In this document: positions 6,788 through 17,599 of the stretch, one piece after another
Layout: each line of letters begins with the position of its first letter
Numbering within the stretch: position 1 is the first letter of the stretch
NCBI RefSeq assembly: GCF_027359675.1
Contig: NZ_CP114786.1
Coordinates: forward strand, 1,988,501 to 2,052,500
Source of the DNA: Roseibium sp. Sym1
GTDB taxonomy: Bacteria; Pseudomonadota; Alphaproteobacteria; Rhizobiales; Stappiaceae
Direction: 5' to 3'
Length of the DNA: 64,000 bases
Notes under the pieces: generated by a model
Seen by the model: the letters and a program-made list of their open reading frames with translations, nothing else
Database searches by the model: none
What the model was told of the DNA's origin: nothing
Position numbers and translations under genes: made by a program

Positions 6788-8920
6788 GTGGAAATCATCA
6801 AGGGATCAGCTAGGAAACCGGTCTCAACGGAACGGCTCGTAGAAATCTTTGAAGACAATTTCTCTGATTTAGAGGGCGTCCTGTACGTCGGTTATCCGGT
6901 ATTATCTTCCTCTGACGAGTCCGTCTCTATTGATGCACTATTGATTTCTAGAGACCATGGTGTTGTTGCTATCAACTTGGTCGAAGGAAAAGACGCGGAA
7001 GGTTATGGGGAACATCAAGACGATGTTGCCAGCCTTTTGGATGCAAAATTCATGCAACATAAGGTGCTGCGTAAGGGCCGAAAACTCTTGGCAGTACCGG
7101 CGACCCTGACTTACGCTCCACTGCTTGATCCCGCGGAAGACGAAGACGAACACCGATTGGTGAACGATACAGATATCGTTGAGGCGATCAGATCGATAGA
7201 GTGGGATGATCCTCAGTTGTATGAGGCCGTCCTTTCTATCATTCAGTCGATTTCCACTATTCGCAGAAACCGACGTCGTCGGACCAACGAGCGAGCGGAC
7301 TCTCATGGCGCCGCTCTGCAAGCCCTAGAAGACTCGATTGCTAACTTGGATGCGCGGCAAAGTAAGGCAGTTATTGAGACAGTTGAGGGGGTTCAACGTA
7401 TTAGAGGGCTCGCTGGATCAGGTAAGACAATTGTGCTCGCACTAAAGGCTGCTTATCTTCATTCGCAGAACCCTAATTGGAAAATCGCAGTAACATTCAA
7501 CACGCGGTCTCTAAAAGAACAGTTCATGCGATTGATTGAGACTTTTGTCGTAGAACAAACAGGTGAGCAGCCAAACGAAAACATAAAAGTTATTAATGCT
7601 TGGGGGGCCCCGGGAGGCGCTAGTCGCACAGGTATTTACTACCAATTCTGTGTACAAAACGGAGCCACATATTTTGACTTCCAACAGGCTAAGGCAAAAT
7701 ACGGTTACGAAAAAGCTTTCGCTGGTGCTACCGCTGCTGCAATGTCCGAGGTGAAGTCGATTTCGCCGCTTTATGACGCAATCCTCATTGATGAAGCTCA
7801 AGACTTTGATCCAGCATTCTTGCAGTTGTGTTATCACTCGCTAAGTGCAGAAAAGCGGTTAGTTTACGCCTACGACGAATTGCAGTCGTTGACTGACGCC
7901 AGTCTGCCTGCACCTGAGGAGATTTTTGGTCTCGATAATCAAGGAAAACCCCTGGTAACATTCGATGGTACGGTAGCAAGCCAAGACATTATCCTGGACA
8001 AGTGTTACCGCAACTCCAGACCGGTGCTAGCATCTGCGCATGCTTTAGGCTTTGGCATCTATCGTGAACCGGATGAAAAACTGGGCACGGGACTAACCCA
8101 AATGTTTGATCGTGCAGAGCTTTGGACAGACGTTGGTTACGAAGTCCTCGACGGAGAACTAAAAGACGACAAGCGGGTGAAGCTGGGCCGAACAAAGTTG
8201 GCAAGTCCAGATTTTCTCGAAAACCCTGGCAAGGTCGAAGATTTAATAATTTTTGGTCATTTTCAGAATGCGAATGAGCAGGCGCACTGGATCGCCGACC
8301 AGATCGTTAAGAATATTTCGAACGATGAACTCCGCCCAGAAGACATAATCGTCATCAACCCCGACCCAATAAGCACAGCTAAGCAGGTCGGACCAATAAG
8401 GAAAATCCTGTTCGACAGAGGGATTCCTTCGCATCTCGCGGGGGTCGATACATCGGGAGATGTTTTCTTTAAGCCAGATGAGGGCTCTGTCGCCTTCACT
8501 GGAATATTCCGTGCCAAAGGCAACGAAGCGGGGATGGTTTATGTCATTAATGCTCAGGATTGCTATAGTTCATTCGGCGAAATCGGAAAAGTCAGAAACA
8601 GACTCTTTACCGCTATGACCCGAAGCAAAGCTTGGGTTCGTGTAATAGGACACGGCCCAAAAATGGAAGCACTCACTGCGGAGTACAACGAGATACTGCG
8701 CAATGATTATTGTCTAGACTTCGTATATCCGAACGAGCGACTAAGAGCGCGACTGCGTGTCGTAAATCGCGACATGTCAGCTGAAGAGAAGCAAAATGTG
8801 AAGTCTGCAAAGCAAAAAATGTCAACTCTAGTTCAACAGCTTGCTGCTGGTGATGTGCAGTTGGACGACCTGCCCGAGAAAGATCTTGAAACACTTCGCG
8901 AACTTCTAGGCAAGCATTGA
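6788..8920 (+). CDS. SF1 (UvrD/Rep-like) helicase with NERD-like nuclease N-terminus
   Basis: 710 aa from a GTG start with AAGGAAGA eight bases before it. Residues about 30-70 resemble a NERD/PD-(D/E)xK core: SIDALLISRDHG with D49, then LVEGK with E66 and K68. The helicase part has motif I GLAGSGKT (207-214), motif II LIDEAQDF (333-340) and a late AMTRSK motif typical of SF1A enzymes. Codon use is clearly A/T-richer than in the flanking genes, which suggests horizontal transfer. It shares a base with the next gene (TGATG), so the two form a unit. Role as an anti-phage or anti-plasmid enzyme is inferred; I do not recognise a named system. Confidence 0.85.
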   Translation: MEIIKGSARKPVSTERLVEIFEDNFSDLEGVLYVGYPVLSSSDESVSIDALLISRDHGVVAINLVEGKDAEGYGEHQDDVASLLDAKFMQHKVLRKGRKLLAVPATLTYAPLLDPAEDEDEHRLVNDTDIVEAIRSIEWDDPQLYEAVLSIIQSISTIRRNRRRRTNERADSHGAALQALEDSIANLDARQSKAVIETVEGVQRIRGLAGSGKTIVLALKAAYLHSQNPNWKIAVTFNTRSLKEQFMRLIETFVVEQTGEQPNENIKVINAWGAPGGASRTGIYYQFCVQNGATYFDFQQAKAKYGYEKAFAGATAAAMSEVKSISPLYDAILIDEAQDFDPAFLQLCYHSLSAEKRLVYAYDELQSLTDASLPAPEEIFGLDNQGKPLVTFDGTVASQDIILDKCYRNSRPVLASAHALGFGIYREPDEKLGTGLTQMFDRAELWTDVGYEVLDGELKDDKRVKLGRTKLASPDFLENPGKVEDLIIFGHFQNANEQAHWIADQIVKNISNDELRPEDIIVINPDPISTAKQVGPIRKILFDRGIPSHLAGVDTSGDVFFKPDEGSVAFTGIFRAKGNEAGMVYVINAQDCYSSFGEIGKVRNRLFTAMTRSKAWVRVIGHGPKMEALTAEYNEILRNDYCLDFVYPNERLRARLRVVNRDMSAEEKQNVKSAKQKMSTLVQQLAAGDVQLDDLPEKDLETLRELLGKH

Positions 8921-9594
8921 TGGCTGACATAAACTCAATAGCCTCAGAAATCCGAGATTTGACCGCCAAAATGATAGAAGTCGGATTATGTGTTGAACCG
9001 AACTTTCCAAGGCAAGCCAGCTACGCTTCTGACGATGGCGCTGTTGATGAGGTTTCGATCGCTGGATTGGAAGAGGTGTCGGTCGCGCTTCGCAATAGGC
9101 CATATGCAGAAACATATGAAGTCATTAGAGAAAAAAGGGCGTTCAATATGCGTCTCATCGATGGCGCACTGGTTCAGCTTCGGTATCGATTTAGAGGGGG
9201 GGAACTTCTCAAGCACGTGCTATCGTTCTATCCATCACCAGATTTACTGGAGTACCAAAATGATCCTGAAGTCTATGAAACCGACATTCTTTTTGCTGAA
9301 GTTGTAATGAAAGACATTGTTACTACTCCAATTAGATTCGATTTTGATCTTGCGGCATTCGAAGATTATGTGCATCCAGCTTCACATTTTACTGTGGGGC
9401 AGTACAGGAATTGCCGAATACCCGTTATCGGTGCATTGACGCCTCATAGATTTCTGAATTTTGTGCTCAGAGCATTTTACAATACTCCCTACCATGAGTT
9501 GTGCTCAGATTGGAGAAGGGTAGCTCAAGATTTTCCAATTACCGCTACAAAGCGTGAACGTTGCGACTTACACTGGAGCTTTTTTAACGAGTAA
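8920..9594 (+). CDS. DUF2290-like protein, partner of the helicase
   Basis: 224 aa, no signal peptide or membrane segment. The sequence resembles the DUF2290 family, with a central YRFRGGELLKHVLSFYPSP stretch and a C-terminal FVLRAFYNTPYH segment. The function is unknown. It is A/T-rich like the upstream helicase gene and is translationally coupled to it (the helicase stop TGA shares its last base with this ATG). The family assignment is from memory of the pattern and should be verified by a profile search. Confidence 0.7.
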   Translation: MADINSIASEIRDLTAKMIEVGLCVEPNFPRQASYASDDGAVDEVSIAGLEEVSVALRNRPYAETYEVIREKRAFNMRLIDGALVQLRYRFRGGELLKHVLSFYPSPDLLEYQNDPEVYETDILFAEVVMKDIVTTPIRFDFDLAAFEDYVHPASHFTVGQYRNCRIPVIGALTPHRFLNFVLRAFYNTPYHELCSDWRRVAQDFPITATKRERCDLHWSFFNE

Positions 9595-9810
9595 AAGTAG
9601 AAAACATTTTGAGTTTTATTAAAAACGGTACGGTCAATTCTATTTTACTCAAAACTCGCCACGAGTGTCCGTGTATTGTCGCCAAAAGCCCCGCACCTGA
9701 CGCGCAACGACAGACTGCAATCGGGACCTTGTAGCGCACCGAAAAATGTCAATTTAGGCACCTAAAGCAGCCCTTCATCTCGAACGCACCCCGCTCTACT
9801 GCCCCCTCCC

Positions 9811-10052
9811 CTGGGCCTCACCCCCCACGCACATCCCAGCACAATTACCAACAACACCACGGCACCACCACCAACGCACTCCCCGCAGCGACGAGCGCCG
9901 TGACGCCGGCGCAGGTGATGGAGGCGGCGGCTTCGGCGAAGGTGGAAGCCTTGGAGGCGACCTGGCGGCGGCGGAAGGTGGTGCGGCTAGCCCGGGTGCG
10001 GAACCGGAGCTGAGTCAGGATCGCGCAGGCCCCGAGATCATAGCGCCGGGGC
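9811..10052 (-). pseudogene. Decayed duplicate of the 3' end of the ABC permease gene at 16.0-17.6 kb
   Basis: The DNA and its minus-strand translation match the C-terminus of the permease encoded at 16043-17599: FRRRQVASKAST is shared exactly, followed by similar FAEAAASITCAGVTALVAAGS. There is no start codon context, no membrane-domain remainder and the match stops at about 10052. Both copies have the same orientation. The base changes are scattered, so the duplication is not recent. The stretch 9595-9810 before it shows no gene. Confidence 0.75.
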
Positions 10053-12339: not shown

Positions 12340-14205
12340 GTGGCTATCGATTTATATGGAAAATGGCGGCTTGAGGTCGTCAAGGCGATCCACAACTGGG
12401 AAAACCGGTATGTGATCGACGGAGCGTCTTCCGGAGGAGGAACCTTCGACGGTGTCGTCGGCCCGGCGAAAGTCGTCGACGGCGTTCACTGGAAATTGCG
12501 CGCGGAATACCGCGAAAACGCGGGCGAGCCGTGGAAGGAATCGGACATGGTGATCGACGCGGCGCCCGACCGCATCGACATCAGGGCGACCATCGGCGCG
12601 GAAGACCCGCTGCCGCAGCCCGACTTCGAGGACATCGAATGGGACGCGCGCTGGCAGGGCGACACGCTGTTCGAGATCCCGGTCCGGCCGTTTGCCGTCC
12701 GGATCCTGGATCTCGGCCAGATGCCCGACGGCATCTTCGAGACGGCGATCGGCGTCTATTACATGGGCGTCAGGGTCGAGAACCACTGGGGGCTCGCCTT
12801 CGGGCCCGACCACGTGCTCGACATCACGCCGCAGAGCCGGGCGCAGCTCGCCGCGCGCGGCATCGACGTGATCGGCAGCTTCACCCAGCAGGAACTCGAC
12901 ATGCTCGGCCAGAAGCTGTCGGGAACCGGCATCAGCCTGGAAGGGCTGGAGCCGGACCGGTCCAGGGTGTTCTATTTCAAGATCGACGTGCGTGAGGCCG
13001 CGCCGCGCAAGCACGAGGTCACCTTTTCCGTCACCAACCGGGCCGGCATGGCCGATCCCGGCGATCCCCGCCGCTTCCAGACCAAGCAGATCTTCGTGTC
13101 ATCGTCCTATATCGACGAGACCACGGGGCAGATCGTTTCAGAGGTGCAGGAAGGCGAAATCCGCGTGCAGCTGCGCGAGGTCGCCATCGATCGGATCACG
13201 GCCAAGAAACGGCGCAGGCGCCTGGACGGCTCCGACGGCAAGGGCGGCGGCGACAAGCCGGGCCGGCGCGGCCGGCGCCGCAACCCGGGGGTAAAAGAGC
13301 TGCGGCGCGCGCTCGACGCGCTGCTGAAGGGCAAGGATATCGACCCCTGCCTGATCCAGAAACTGCTGACCTGCTACTGCAATTGCCGCGATCTGCCGGG
13401 CTTCCCGGGCGGTGGCGGCGGGTACGATCCGTCCGACCCCTGGGGCGGCGGCCGCGACCCGCGGTTCCCGGGCGACGGCAAATGGCAGTATCCGCCGTTT
13501 CTCGCCTTCCCGACCAGGTTCGACTACACGGTGACGCCGACGGATCCCTTCGAAGGCCAGTACGGGCCGCTGCCCTATGACGACCCCTGGTGGAAGGTGC
13601 TGCTGATCATCATCGCCGTGATCCTCCTGGTCGCGGGCATGATCGCGGAAGCCGCCGACATCGCCTACCAGGACGAGGACAATGTCATCGGCACCCTGGG
13701 AGCGTTCCAGCAGGACGACATCGACGCGGCGCTGTGCGTGATCGACACGGACCGGGCCCTGGCGATGAACACCGTTCTCGATGCGCAGTCGGACGAGGAT
13801 TTCCTCAATCCGCTGACGGCGCTGAACGGCATGGTCACCGCCGTGACCGGAAACGTGCTGACGGCCGCGGAGGTCGCCAACCTGCTCGCGCTGCCCTTTG
13901 ACGATCCGCAGCGCAAGGTGTTCAAATCCGGGGCGACCTCCGGCTTCACCCACGGCATCATGACCGCCTTGTCGCCGGTCGGGCACCCGGCGGCCAGCTG
14001 GAGCATCGACCAGCTGCAGATCACCCGGGATCCCGCGTTCGACGAGCCGACAAGCCAGCCGGGCGATTCCGGCTCGGTCTGGATCCATACGGATACTTTG
14101 CGCCCGGTGGGCCTGAACCACTCAGGTTCCGCCGACGGCTCGGGGGACAACGCCACCGCCTCGCTGCTTGAGGACGTCCAGCGTATCCTCAACATCACCA
14201 TCTGA
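12340..14205 (+). CDS. Large protein with C-terminal half of a trypsin-like protease (Asp and Ser, no His)
   Basis: 621 aa from a GTG preceded by GGAG. Residues 1-285 look like beta-rich domains of unknown type; 286-315 is strongly basic; 345-350 holds a small Cys cluster (CYCNC); 355-385 is Gly/Pro-rich; 417-437 is a hydrophobic membrane-like helix. After it, IGTLGAF (450-456), DIDAALCVI (460-468, D462), FKSGATSGFTHG (528-539) and QPGDSGSVW (573-581, S577) follow the order of the second half of Nal1-type trypsin-like proteases. The usual first half with the SNNHV histidine is absent here and is found in the next gene, 15 bp downstream. No signal peptide is seen. Confidence 0.7.
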   Translation: MAIDLYGKWRLEVVKAIHNWENRYVIDGASSGGGTFDGVVGPAKVVDGVHWKLRAEYRENAGEPWKESDMVIDAAPDRIDIRATIGAEDPLPQPDFEDIEWDARWQGDTLFEIPVRPFAVRILDLGQMPDGIFETAIGVYYMGVRVENHWGLAFGPDHVLDITPQSRAQLAARGIDVIGSFTQQELDMLGQKLSGTGISLEGLEPDRSRVFYFKIDVREAAPRKHEVTFSVTNRAGMADPGDPRRFQTKQIFVSSSYIDETTGQIVSEVQEGEIRVQLREVAIDRITAKKRRRRLDGSDGKGGGDKPGRRGRRRNPGVKELRRALDALLKGKDIDPCLIQKLLTCYCNCRDLPGFPGGGGGYDPSDPWGGGRDPRFPGDGKWQYPPFLAFPTRFDYTVTPTDPFEGQYGPLPYDDPWWKVLLIIIAVILLVAGMIAEAADIAYQDEDNVIGTLGAFQQDDIDAALCVIDTDRALAMNTVLDAQSDEDFLNPLTALNGMVTAVTGNVLTAAEVANLLALPFDDPQRKVFKSGATSGFTHGIMTALSPVGHPAASWSIDQLQITRDPAFDEPTSQPGDSGSVWIHTDTLRPVGLNHSGSADGSGDNATASLLEDVQRILNITI

Positions 14206-14220
14206 CGGAGTGCATGCGAC

Positions 14221-15993
14221 ATGGTTGAAATCAACGAAACCGTTGCCCGTATCCAGGCGAGCGTGCGCCGTCTGCGGGCAGAATATGCCGACGATCCCAA
14301 CGTGACCGCCATCGGCTTCGGCGCGCCCGAGCGCGGCGGCAAGCATCAGGACGGTCTGGCGATCCTCTTCTACGTCAACGAGAAACTGCCGTCCGAACGG
14401 GTCATCGAGACAAAGGGCTCGCGGCCGATCCCGAAGGAAATCGACGGCTTTCCGACCGATGTCCGGGACCAGAAATTCGTCAAGGGCTCCGTCGGTCAGC
14501 GCGACGAGCGCAAATACGATCCGCTGCTCGGCGGTCCGGCGTCCTCCAATTCCGAACAGCACGTGCTGTGGTTCAACGGCAATGGCACGCTGGGCATCCT
14601 GGGAACCGACAATGCGACCGGCGCGCCGGTCGGCCTGTCGAACTGGCACGTGTGGGCCGACGGCGGCTCGGCCGGCGACCAGATCATCCAGCCCGGGCAC
14701 CCGACCGGCGGCGATCACGTGGAGGCGATCGGCAAGGTGCTTGCCTGCGGGCCGCTGATCACGTCCCTGATCGAGTGGGAAAGCCCGGATCCGATCGCGG
14801 CGATCTGCTACGGCGGCGCCGCGGCGGCGGCGATCGCGGCGGCCTGTTCCGACTACAAGGACCAGACGCGCCGCGGCCAGGACGCAACCGTGCCGCCCGC
14901 CGGGGAAAAGACCCTGCGCGAGCGGGTCTCCAACGAGATCCTCTACTACGACCTGCCGCTGCCGGGCTATCCGTTCAAGGCCGAGACCATCTGGCGCTAC
15001 GAACGCGAAACGGACCAGCGGATCATGGTCCACGAGGAACGCGAGAAGGTCGCCAATGCCCAGTTCCTGCTCGGCAAGCAGGTCCTCACCGACAAGCCGG
15101 GCTACAATCCGGGCGAGCGGGCGACCATCTTCGCCTCGATCTGGGACTACCAGCTCGAGCGGACCTGCAACGACTACCACGTGGTCGCCCATCTGATCCC
15201 GCACGATCAGCCGACCACGGCCGTGCGCTCGATCCTGCAGCCGGTACCCTGCGACGAGGATCCCATGGGCGAAGAGGAAGACCTGGATTGCATCCGCTTC
15301 TTCGAGATGGAAAACGGCGAGGTCATCTACAAGGGCAGCTTCGACTGGCTCGGCTACCTGCAGCCCCAGCAGCAGAACATGGCGATCGTCAACTGGGGAG
15401 AGCCCGCCAAGGGCCTGCTGCTGCCGGCGCGCGGCATTCAGTTCAGCCATCCTCCCGTCTCCGAGGTCCGGATCAAGGTGGTGCAATACACCAGCCGGCC
15501 CGTCCGGCTGCGCGCCTTCGCAGGCGGCGCGCTCGTCGGCGAGGATGTGACGGACGGAACCCAGGGCGTGGTCCACACCCTCACGGTCAAGGGCAACGGC
15601 ATTTCCTCGACACACGTCATGGGCGGCGGCGGCGAGGCCGTGCTGATCGAGTATTGCGTCGAGGGTCTCGACCGGGAGGGCGATTTCCGGATCAATCTTC
15701 CTAAAGAGCAGCTCGAGGCGATCCTGAAGGATGCGCGCGAGGCGCGGATCGAGGTGAACGCGGCCAGGACCCGGCAATGCTGCTTCAGGGGATCGGTGCG
15801 CATCCCGGTGACGTCGAAACCCGGCAAGTGGGATGTCTACCTGACGGTCCAGAACATCAACAATGTTCCGGAGGGCACGAAGCCGGAAGTGGCTGCCCAG
15901 ACCATCGGCGGTCACCTGCTCAGCGCCCAGACGCTCAGCCCGTCCGGCTGCCTGGGCATCATGCTGCTGGATCACGTCTTCGACGTGATCTGA
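14221..15993 (+). CDS. Large protein with N-terminal half of a trypsin-like protease (His, no Ser)
   Basis: 590 aa. Residues 25-85 (NVTAIGFGAPE ... AILFYVNEKLPSERV ... IDGFPTDV) and 120-145 (NGTLGILGTDNATGAPVGLSNWHVWA) match the first half of Nal1-like trypsin-type proteases, giving H143 in the position of the catalytic histidine. The GDSGS segment is missing; after an Ala-rich stretch (199-208) the protein continues with about 350 residues of beta-type sequence of unknown family. The missing serine half is encoded by the upstream gene. The two genes are 15 bp apart and surely co-transcribed. No signal peptide is seen. Activity as a split enzyme is inferred. Confidence 0.72.
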   Translation: MVEINETVARIQASVRRLRAEYADDPNVTAIGFGAPERGGKHQDGLAILFYVNEKLPSERVIETKGSRPIPKEIDGFPTDVRDQKFVKGSVGQRDERKYDPLLGGPASSNSEQHVLWFNGNGTLGILGTDNATGAPVGLSNWHVWADGGSAGDQIIQPGHPTGGDHVEAIGKVLACGPLITSLIEWESPDPIAAICYGGAAAAAIAAACSDYKDQTRRGQDATVPPAGEKTLRERVSNEILYYDLPLPGYPFKAETIWRYERETDQRIMVHEEREKVANAQFLLGKQVLTDKPGYNPGERATIFASIWDYQLERTCNDYHVVAHLIPHDQPTTAVRSILQPVPCDEDPMGEEEDLDCIRFFEMENGEVIYKGSFDWLGYLQPQQQNMAIVNWGEPAKGLLLPARGIQFSHPPVSEVRIKVVQYTSRPVRLRAFAGGALVGEDVTDGTQGVVHTLTVKGNGISSTHVMGGGGEAVLIEYCVEGLDREGDFRINLPKEQLEAILKDAREARIEVNAARTRQCCFRGSVRIPVTSKPGKWDVYLTVQNINNVPEGTKPEVAAQTIGGHLLSAQTLSPSGCLGIMLLDHVFDVI

Positions 15994-16042: not shown

Positions 16043-17599
16043 TCAAGCCCTGAACCCGGCTGCGTCCTGCCTCGGCCTCACACCCCAGGCACTCCCCAGC
16101 ACGATCAAAAGCAGCACAAGCGGTGCTATCGCCAGCGGGCTGCCCGCCGCGACGAGGGCCGTTGCGCCCGCGCAGGAGATGGAGGCGCCGGCCTCCGCAA
16201 GGGTCGAGGCCTTCGAGGCGACCTGGCGGCGGCGGAAATTGGTGCGGCTGGCCTGGGCGCGGAACCAGAGCTGGATCAGGATCGCGCAGCTTGTCGCGAT
16301 CATGGCGCCGGTAAAGGTAACAAGCGCACCCGAGAGGGACAGGACGGCCAGTGCGAGGGTGATCGGCAGCAGAACCGCGGCGATCAGCGCTTGGGCGGCC
16401 AGGACTTTCGCCCCGAGGCGCGTGACGGGGGAGATGGGGGCCGTTGCGACGAGATCGGGCGCATCCTCGCCCGAGATCGTCAGCCAGGCGAGCCCGCCGG
16501 CCAGCTGGCCGACGGCCATCACGATCACCGGCGCAACCAGCACGGAAATCTCCGTGTTTTCGCCGAAACTGACCCAGAGCATCACGGCGGGCGGGACCAG
16601 ATAAAGCACCTGCATCAGCGTCTGGGACACCAGCCAGGGATCGCGGGCAATCAGCTTCAGTTCCTTGAAAACCAGCGCCCCGAGGGCCGAGCGGCTGCGG
16701 AAGGCCCGCTCTTTTACGCGTCTGCGTGGGCTGGTCTCGGCAACGCCGAGCGCCCGCACCACACTGCGGCGGAACTGGACCGCGCCGCACCAGGCGCCAG
16801 CGGCAAAAACGGTGACAGACCCTGCCAGCAACAGGAGCAGGACGCTTGCCTGACCGGCCACCGCATGCGCCGGAAACCACCAGAGCGAGCTTGCGCCCGG
16901 GACATGCAGGCTCAGGAAGTCCGCGTCAAAAAGCGCGAAGCGCGACATCGAGCCGAAGGAGAGGATCGCGACCACCTGCAATCCGATCAGGAAGGCCGCG
17001 CCGACGACCGCCGCCAGGATCTGCGCCAGAAGCCGCGTGCGCCCGGGCCCGGCCGTCCGGAACAGGGCAAGCGTTATCAGAATGCCCGCACCGGTCGCGG
17101 TCAACGAGGCGGCGAGGATGACCGGATAACCGGAAAGCCAATGGGCCCCGCCGAGGCTTGCCGCCACGTTCAGGAAGGGCGAGAGGACCAGCGCGGACAT
17201 GACCCAGCTGGTGACGGCCATCATGGCGATACGGACCAGGAAGAGGTCCCGGGAAGGCGCGGGCGAGGACAGGATCAGGTCGAGGTCGTCGCGGGCATAG
17301 AAGGCCCGCGTGACCGATTCAATTGCCTGCGACAGCATCATGGTGAAACTGAGCAGGACCGAGACCGAAATCACCGCCAGCACCGTCTGGTCGAGAGGGA
17401 GCCCGCCGGCAAACTGGGGAGCGAGCGCGGCATAGGCGATCAAGTGCAGGAGCGCGTAGAAAAGGCCCATGCCGATCAGCGTGCGCCTGAGGCTGGTGTT
17501 GCGCCAGCCGGAAAAGATCCAGGCCCAGTCGCGCCAGGCGAGCCGCAACTCATGCTTTGAAAAGCGCACCAGGGCCGAGGGCGCCAGGGCCCGGCTCAT
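16043..17599 (-). CDS. ABC-2 type exporter permease
   Basis: 518 aa with many hydrophobic segments spread over two halves, a basic loop around 290-310 and a cytosolic N-terminus with HELRLAWRDW. It resembles large ABC-2 permeases. It overlaps the ATPase gene upstream by ATGA, so the two make one transporter. The substrate is not evident. Its 3' end exists as a decayed second copy at 9811-10052. Confidence 0.82.
   Translation of the reverse strand: MSRALAPSALVRFSKHELRLAWRDWAWIFSGWRNTSLRRTLIGMGLFYALLHLIAYAALAPQFAGGLPLDQTVLAVISVSVLLSFTMMLSQAIESVTRAFYARDDLDLILSSPAPSRDLFLVRIAMMAVTSWVMSALVLSPFLNVAASLGGAHWLSGYPVILAASLTATGAGILITLALFRTAGPGRTRLLAQILAAVVGAAFLIGLQVVAILSFGSMSRFALFDADFLSLHVPGASSLWWFPAHAVAGQASVLLLLLAGSVTVFAAGAWCGAVQFRRSVVRALGVAETSPRRRVKERAFRSRSALGALVFKELKLIARDPWLVSQTLMQVLYLVPPAVMLWVSFGENTEISVLVAPVIVMAVGQLAGGLAWLTISGEDAPDLVATAPISPVTRLGAKVLAAQALIAAVLLPITLALAVLSLSGALVTFTGAMIATSCAILIQLWFRAQASRTNFRRRQVASKASTLAEAGASISCAGATALVAAGSPLAIAPLVLLLIVLGSAWGVRPRQDAAGFRA

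Follow-up and report, generated by a model that had tools for sequence, protein, structure and literature searches.

A Nal1-like trypsin domain divided between two adjacent genes with its halves in swapped order: a putative heterodimeric serine protease in Roseibium sp. Sym1

Two adjacent genes of Roseibium sp. Sym1, here called A and B, each carry one half of what appears to be a single Nal1-like trypsin domain, the aspartate and serine half in A and the histidine half in B, in swapped order. They lie in a window of 64,000 nucleotides (contig NZ_CP114786.1, positions 1,988,501 to 2,052,500; all coordinates below without a locus prefix are those of the window), on the same strand and in the same frame, 15 nucleotides apart. 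Outside the protease halves, both proteins are related to a family of single-chain proteins, family X, which provides the reference for their remaining parts.

12340..14205, plus strand: gene A, 621 amino acids, GTG start; N-terminal domain, scaffold part 1, hydrophobic helix 1 and C-terminal Asp/Ser half
12340..12663, plus strand: A residues 1-108, N-terminal region, with no counterpart in family X found by hhalign, whose X-A alignment starts only at A 109
12664..13581, plus strand: A residues 109-414, scaffold part 1, which shares homology with the N-terminal part of family X (hhalign E 4e-26)
13582..13671, plus strand: A residues 415-444, the DPWWK hydrophobic helix 1, common to X by alignments and hydropathy
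13672..14202, plus strand: A residues 445-621, Nal1-like trypsin domain, second half, with Asp and Ser (hhalign E 5e-12; hmmsearch 2.2e-17)
13723..13725, plus strand: D462 in DIDAALCVI, putative catalytic aspartate
14068..14070, plus strand: S577 in GDSGS, putative nucleophile
14206..14220, plus strand: 15-nucleotide spacer upstream of B's ATG, with GGAG at 14207-14210, likely the ribosome-binding site of B
14221..15993, plus strand: gene B, 590 amino acids; N-terminal His half, helix 2 and scaffold part 2
14221..14775, plus strand: B residues 1-185, Nal1-like trypsin domain, first half, with His (hhalign E 1.6e-22; hmmsearch 1.3e-29)
14647..14649, plus strand: H143 in LSNWHVWA, putative catalytic histidine
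14776..14895, plus strand: B residues 186-225, helix 2 (hydrophobic, Ala-rich) with the ACSD..RGQ motif, both common to X
14896..15990, plus strand: B residues 226-590, scaffold part 2, stretches of which share homology with the C-terminal region of X

The pair was noticed in an earlier reading of the letters alone. The original prediction gave the two reading frames (12340-14205 and 14221-15993) and the 15-bp gap as we find them, and its residue numbers are right: the first gene ends in the Asp/Ser half, with D462 in DIDAALCVI followed by GATSGFTHG and by GDSGS with S577, and the second opens with the His half, comprising NVTAIGFGAPE, IDGFPTDV and LSNWHVWA with H143. The membrane-like helix that it placed at A 417-437 is indeed strongly hydrophobic, the best 19-residue Kyte-Doolittle mean being 2.92, from residue 420. 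This value of about 2.9 is membrane-like, that of helix 2 is weaker at 1.8, and the medians of the same helices in family X are 3.2 and 2.0. No signal peptide is seen by eye in either protein. Neither A nor B has a match above cut-offs in Pfam, NCBIfam or PADLOC, or by phmmer against PDB sequences; a match of B to MG2 (E 0.019) falls under the family cut-off.

Profile comparisons indicate that the halves are complementary parts of one domain. By hhalign, B 12-185 aligns with residues 13-189 of L012, a single-chain protease of the window's genus (E 1.6e-22), and A 405-621 aligns with its residues 129-335 (E 5e-12), the convincing part starting from about A 448. On a profile of 12 distinct single-chain proteases (334 positions), five B sequences match positions 4-170 and five A sequences match 168-318, so that the two overlap by three positions at most; two further B matches have E values of 2 and 3.9. 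An hhalign comparison of the A profile with the B profile found nothing in common. As predicted, neither this comparison nor the single-chain profile revealed a hidden His half in A or a hidden Ser half in B. One candidate for such a His half, H594 of A, was rejected, as it is the conserved histidine after the Ser motif, present in four aligned single-chain relatives. The strict histidine motif, SN-x-HV, occurs in only 1 of the 120 listed A relatives and 2 of the 120 listed members of X (SNIHV, SNVHV, resembling the scaffold's QTNIHV); a looser form is found in 7 and 74 of them, respectively, and the printed examples (TNAHV, QTNIHV) lie in the scaffold.

His precedes Ser within one chain in all 12 single-chain proteases, which were chosen for having both motifs, and the window's genus itself has single-chain proteases with His before Asp/Ser (L012, L015, L016, L017). 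The order His-Asp-Ser on one chain is not what we find in the pair, where Asp and Ser are in A and His is in B. A/B would thus work like the trypsin-like family (S1/PA clan, Nal1-like), yet not be a normal member of it. Searched against PDB sequences, the B profile (positions 33-149) matches nine at E<=10, all of them NARROW LEAF 1 and all weak (best E 0.0035), and the A profile finds no protease. Given that the catalytic aspartate of chymotrypsin-like folds sits in the first barrel, a cut between His and Asp implies that both chains would contribute to the first barrel itself. In trees with 12 single-chain rows and midpoint rooting, the pair sequences form one clade for each half (support 0.15 for the His half and 0.815 for the Ser half), which does no more than suggest a single origin of the split pair.

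The triad positions are conserved over a wide range of hosts. The protein search, which scored only the 8000 candidates with the most words in common with the query, returned 132 relatives of B and 133 of A at E<=1e-3; the names, motif counts and alignments given here rest on the best 120 of each, every alignment thus having 121 rows with the query. Source names among these relatives include Roseibium, Archangium, Cellulomonas, Streptomyces, Nostoc, Saprospirales, the archaeon Salinigranum and a Thorarchaeota metagenome-assembled genome. H143 and D462 are each kept in 121 of 121 rows and S577 in 120 of 120, with one gap, probably the fragment P0224; G575 and D576 are each present in 119 of 120. 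In one of the S577 rows, P0211, the end of the protein is unrelated, apparently through a frameshift, and lacks GDSG; the serine there is probably a chance match. Likewise, the strict SN-x-HV motif is found in all 120 B relatives and GDSG in 118 of the 120 A relatives, the two exceptions having a damaged or cut end, and none of the listed relatives shows a triad residue cleanly lost. The near or full invariance of the catalytic positions compares with a mean majority-residue share of about 0.67-0.70 over the protease halves in which they lie. The two helices are more conserved than any other part of A and B, with mean majority shares of 0.778 and 0.830 versus 0.62-0.70 elsewhere.

What holds the halves appears to be a scaffold that also exists as a single chain without any protease:

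L041:7991-9481, minus strand: reference protein of family X, with the listed relatives P0242-P0361

The reference protein has 330 relatives, of which the 120 listed are 58-99% identical to the reference, mostly about 498 residues long and from several phyla by their source names. Some sources name them "choice-of-anchor X domain-containing protein", and a 25-residue match of that name is the whole of their functional assignment; the phrase "choice-of-anchor X" was not found in the open-access papers searched. By hhalign, X aligns with A from residue 109 across helix 1, trailing off weakly into the Ser half (E 4e-26), and with B at residues 164-282 (E 9e-26). The X profile in turn finds the pair in the window at 13504-13755, running through helix 1, at 14809-15063 and at 15817-15924, the stretch of B between the last two being uncovered. 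GDSG is present in none of the 120 listed members. The reference itself, a 496-residue protein of genome G544 from the Cellulomonas phylum, matches the A profile at 112-414 and the B profile at 196-288 and 541-577, and lacks the protease. In X the two hydrophobic helices are consecutive, with 83-89 residues from DPWWK to RGQ in the ten members checked; in A/B the protease stands between them, the Ser half after helix 1 and the His half before helix 2. The scaffold order of X (N-terminal part, DPWWK helix, RGQ helix, C-terminal part) is thereby spread in A/B over two chains with the protease halves in between, and A/B may be described as an X scaffold cut inside a circularly permuted protease that lies between the helices. 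The original prediction spoke of large extra domains of unknown type: the domains are there, but rather than unrelated extras they are mostly the two parts of one single-chain scaffold. In genomes X is as uncommon as the pair: apart from A/B themselves, no X was found in the 398 and 399 genomes searched, nor any on plasmids. On one viral contig (L050:7167-9506), X adjoins a 273-residue protein without a Pfam match, near genes that look phage-like by eye. Three longer relatives of B (P0014, P0114 and P0120; 738-747 residues) apparently have an extra copy of a scaffold domain.

The two genes travel together. A lies directly upstream of B in nine of nine loci with a full-length B (the window, L002-L008 and L052), all of them bacterial: seven of seven genome loci found by B have it there, and the window and a Methylocystis parvus plasmid, on which the upstream A was read in one of the two records, complete the nine. 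The plasmid pair is only 35% (A) and 32% (B) identical, and still has His, Asp and GDSGS. Between the listed relatives, archaeal ones included, 55 unambiguous A/B pairs were matched by the length of their contigs, with two ambiguous lengths. Among the 120 listed of each, 21 B and 20 A entries on contigs longer than 10 kb have no partner; P0001 and P0088 are among these, yet loci whose contigs have the same lengths, L003 and L008, do hold A, so that the lack of a listed partner is no proof of absence. Loci with one gene only, named beforehand as evidence that would speak against a joint protease, are absent from the nine loci read, and the unpaired entries leave the point partly open. No A-B fusion is seen among the open reading frames of L002 and L004-L008, where the long frames of L005 and L007 are read out of frame, or by frame reading of L003. 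The protein search left out proteins longer than 1.75 times the query and may therefore have overlooked a long fusion.

The pair is uncommon and its distribution scattered. A full-length B occurs in 3 of 61 genomes (the window's, G011 and G020). Searches centred on one genome each gave a full-length A in 1 of 398 genomes for the window's phylum and in 1 of 296 for that of Cellulomonas, in both cases the centre genome itself. No relatives of A were found on viral contigs, where the B scan gave one locus, with a single-chain protease. B has matches in eight plasmid records: two, from one and the same Methylocystis plasmid, contain most of its length, and in the other six the match is confined to the His half.

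The chains have also diverged in step. Over the 55 pairs, the distances among A sequences correlate with those among B sequences at 0.936 (maximum of 1000 shuffles, 0.30). The comparison of modules and the column covariation used 61 pairs, with an effective number of 45. Here the correlation is 0.928 between the A scaffold and the B scaffold and 0.823 between the Ser half and the His half. The Ser half follows its own scaffold less closely (0.701, below 0.823 in 200 of 200 bootstraps) and the B scaffold likewise (0.726, below 0.823 in 97.5% of bootstraps). Among the top inter-chain column pairs by corrected mutual information, combinations of Ser half and His half make up 10 of 30, 13 of 60, 20 of 100 and 34 of 200, compared with 7.9% of all pairs. 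None of 100 row shuffles reaches these counts, and entropy-matched label permutations reach them in 2, 11, 0 and 2 of 2000 (top 30, 60, 100 and 200).

We propose that A and B make up an obligate heterodimer, a serine protease with an active site that comes into being when the two chains assemble; we assign this reading a probability of roughly three in four (0.76). The shared scaffold, made of the N-terminal part of A, the two helices and the C-terminal part of B, would hold the chains together, and a circularly permuted Nal1-like trypsin domain would lie between the two helices. The Asp/Ser half would continue from helix 1 to the stop of A, and the His half would lead from the start of B into helix 2. 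Because the one ends at the stop of A and the other begins at the start of B, the A/B junction would fall at the natural ends of the protease domain, which would be opened instead between His and Asp. On assembly, H143 of B with D462 and S577 of A would form one triad, and neither chain would cut alone. A junction that coincides with the expected ends of a normal protease domain fits a tandem duplication of the protease, followed by loss of opposite halves, as a possible origin. Physical assembly, triad geometry, activity and the duplication are all predicted here from sequence. As for the cut itself, a natural guess is that it safeguards against activity before assembly.

Are the halves joined in one active site, or has each been kept for binding only, as the original prediction had also allowed? 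The near-invariance of the triad, the pairing in nine of nine loci, the complementarity of the halves, the covariation between Ser half and His half, and a scaffold that forms a single chain in the protease-free X together favour the joint site. It is unlikely, though the closest competitor, that A and B assemble and the halves complete one trypsin fold that serves as a non-catalytic recognition or assembly module. The trypsin-like MamO offers a precedent for lost catalysis with another function kept (PMC4794232), and catalysis by A/B is itself a prediction; the invariance of the catalytic positions over 121 rows, well above the mean share of about 0.67-0.70 in the halves, argues against such a loss, as does the lack of any clean triad loss among the listed relatives, the two A sequences without GDSG being damaged or cut. 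We consider it quite improbable that the halves do not meet in an A/B dimer, and act as separate binding domains or pair each with a complete single-chain protease encoded elsewhere in the genome. Single-chain relatives do occur in the same genus and in two pair-carrying genomes (G011 and G020), and the His half follows the A scaffold as closely as it follows the Ser half (0.822 versus 0.823). Against separate halves stand the concentration of inter-chain covariation on Ser half and His half, the complementarity of the two halves, the existence of X as a whole without a protease, and the fact that the one match of the B profile in the window's own genome is B itself. One might suspect an artefact of sequencing or annotation, with a frameshift breaking up a single gene, since the two genes share a frame and are 15 nucleotides apart. 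This explanation was rejected and has a negligible probability: the same split with swapped half order recurs in nine of nine loci of distant bacteria, several with B in another frame than A, and given the swapped order no single frameshift yields a normal protease.

Several observations weigh against the heterodimeric protease that we propose. The His half follows the A scaffold (0.822) and the B scaffold (0.804) as well as it follows the Ser half, the B scaffold value being lower than 0.823 in just 56% of bootstraps, so that the picture of two modules comes from the side of the Ser half only. In the top 30 column pairs, combinations of the N-terminal region of A with the His half are also raised (4 pairs, 2.3-fold), and hub columns recur among the top covarying pairs. 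The covariation rests on 61 pairs, and the shuffle and permutation controls leave shared ancestry in, with possible inflation of the counts. The assignment of D462 relies on profile alignment and invariance: hhalign aligns it to the single-chain aspartate, and it lies outside the main HMMER match of the window's A. Of the five main A matches to the single-chain profile, three, the window's included, begin past the Asp position. The match of P0213 (169-317) covers this position, a different aspartate of P0188 falls on it, and in P0233 it is spanned by a weak additional match (E 0.053). Finally, the membrane-like helix 1 has no obvious place in a cytoplasmic dimer.

The surroundings of the pair in the window are as follows:

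6788..9594, plus strand: Helicase and DUF2290 anti-phage pair, upstream of A/B in the same variable spot (PADLOC E 5e-300 and 3e-78)
9810..10049, plus strand: left copy of an imperfect direct repeat, 3' end of a permease gene (self-comparison, 79% over 242 bp)
16070..16311, plus strand: right copy of the permease 3'-end repeat (self-comparison)

A pair of this Helicase and DUF2290 kind is reported to inhibit phage T7 (PMC9122126). In the relative G034 the flanks of the spot align, and a class II Argonaute with a Helical-REase partner (L072:3023-6495) replaces the helicase pair, a luciferase-like gene and A/B; the spot is probably a defence hotspot in the window's genus. The two repeat copies flank a stretch of about 6.0 kb with the luciferase-like gene, A and B, and G034 shows the sequence once, a pattern that suggests an insertion of about 6 kb. 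Elsewhere, the Cellulomonas pair adjoins a type I restriction gene, and on the Methylocystis plasmid about 4 kb separate the pair from a Mu-type transposase with TniB and TniQ. Around the pair in L002, L003, L004 and L007, the one or two genes tested per locus are of ordinary kinds (regulator, cupin, kinase, receptor, esterase, MatE); for L006 and L008 the neighbours tested gave no Pfam match, and A and B match no family of PADLOC-DB 2.0.0 at E<=1. Given that a defence context is seen in the window and in Cellulomonas, and not in L002, L003, L004 and L007, a defence role is a lead and not a result; the evidence weakly suggests that the protease, assembled conditionally, serves in conflicts between genomes, for example in defence against phages. 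More fully, and tentatively, A/B could be a new kind of switchable protease, a circularly permuted trypsin opened between His and Asp, threaded onto the two scaffold helices and catalytic only for as long as both gene products stay assembled, forming a stand-alone two-gene conflict (perhaps anti-phage) module spread horizontally through bacteria and archaea; we hold this fuller picture to be possible but doubtful.

If the proposed reading is true, A/B would be a natural split trypsin-like enzyme, with a triad divided between two genes and conserved over very distant hosts. It would show evolution cutting and permuting one of the best-known enzyme folds while keeping its function, and would offer a ready protein pair for the study of assembly-gated proteolysis. 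Family X would then be the protease-free form of the same machine, and its role could be approached by comparison. No description of a trypsin-like protease split over two genes was found among the listed open-access titles and abstract openings, several of the searches having matched many more papers than they listed; within that scope, the statement that no bacterial protease of this layout has been described is supported.

How does the pair compare with known systems? Plant NARROW LEAF 1 (NAL1) has its whole protease in one chain. It resembles the His half of B by a weak profile match (PDB 7y77, 8hat, 8pml and others), and unlike NAL1, the A/B protease is cut between His and Asp with the order swapped. 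The bacterial single-chain Nal1-like trypsins are of the same protease family as A/B by profile comparison, and theirs is uncut and unpermuted. The NS2 protein of hepatitis C virus is a homodimeric cysteine protease. NS2 has a composite active site, like that proposed for A/B (PMC5819835 for NS2); unlike in NS2, two different genes would each supply part of a trypsin-like triad. In System 3, the trypsin-NucA conflict system, Endonuclease_NS is fused or adjacent (PMC7159879), whereas this Pfam domain was not found in A, B or the four neighbours scanned. L012, from the window's genus, is a Nal1-like trypsin fused to Endonuclease_NS, a DNA/RNA non-specific endonuclease, and would belong to System 3; L015, 71% identical, looks alike. 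Five plasmid records, from Rhizobium, Streptomyces and Tsukamurella, match the His half of B in genes annotated as DNA/RNA non-specific endonucleases. The nuclease-protease pairs of Hachiman, AVAST, Lamassu and DRT are, like A/B, mobile two-gene cassettes with a trypsin-like protease, but in those pairs an MBL-fold nuclease is the partner and a further defence enzyme is fused to the protease, which is not so in A/B (PMC12799240 for these pairs). The word "split" is absent from the main texts of PMC12799240 and PMC7159879. The nearest comparison for the architecture as a whole is family X, a one-chain version of the A/B scaffold with both helices, in which the protease is missing.

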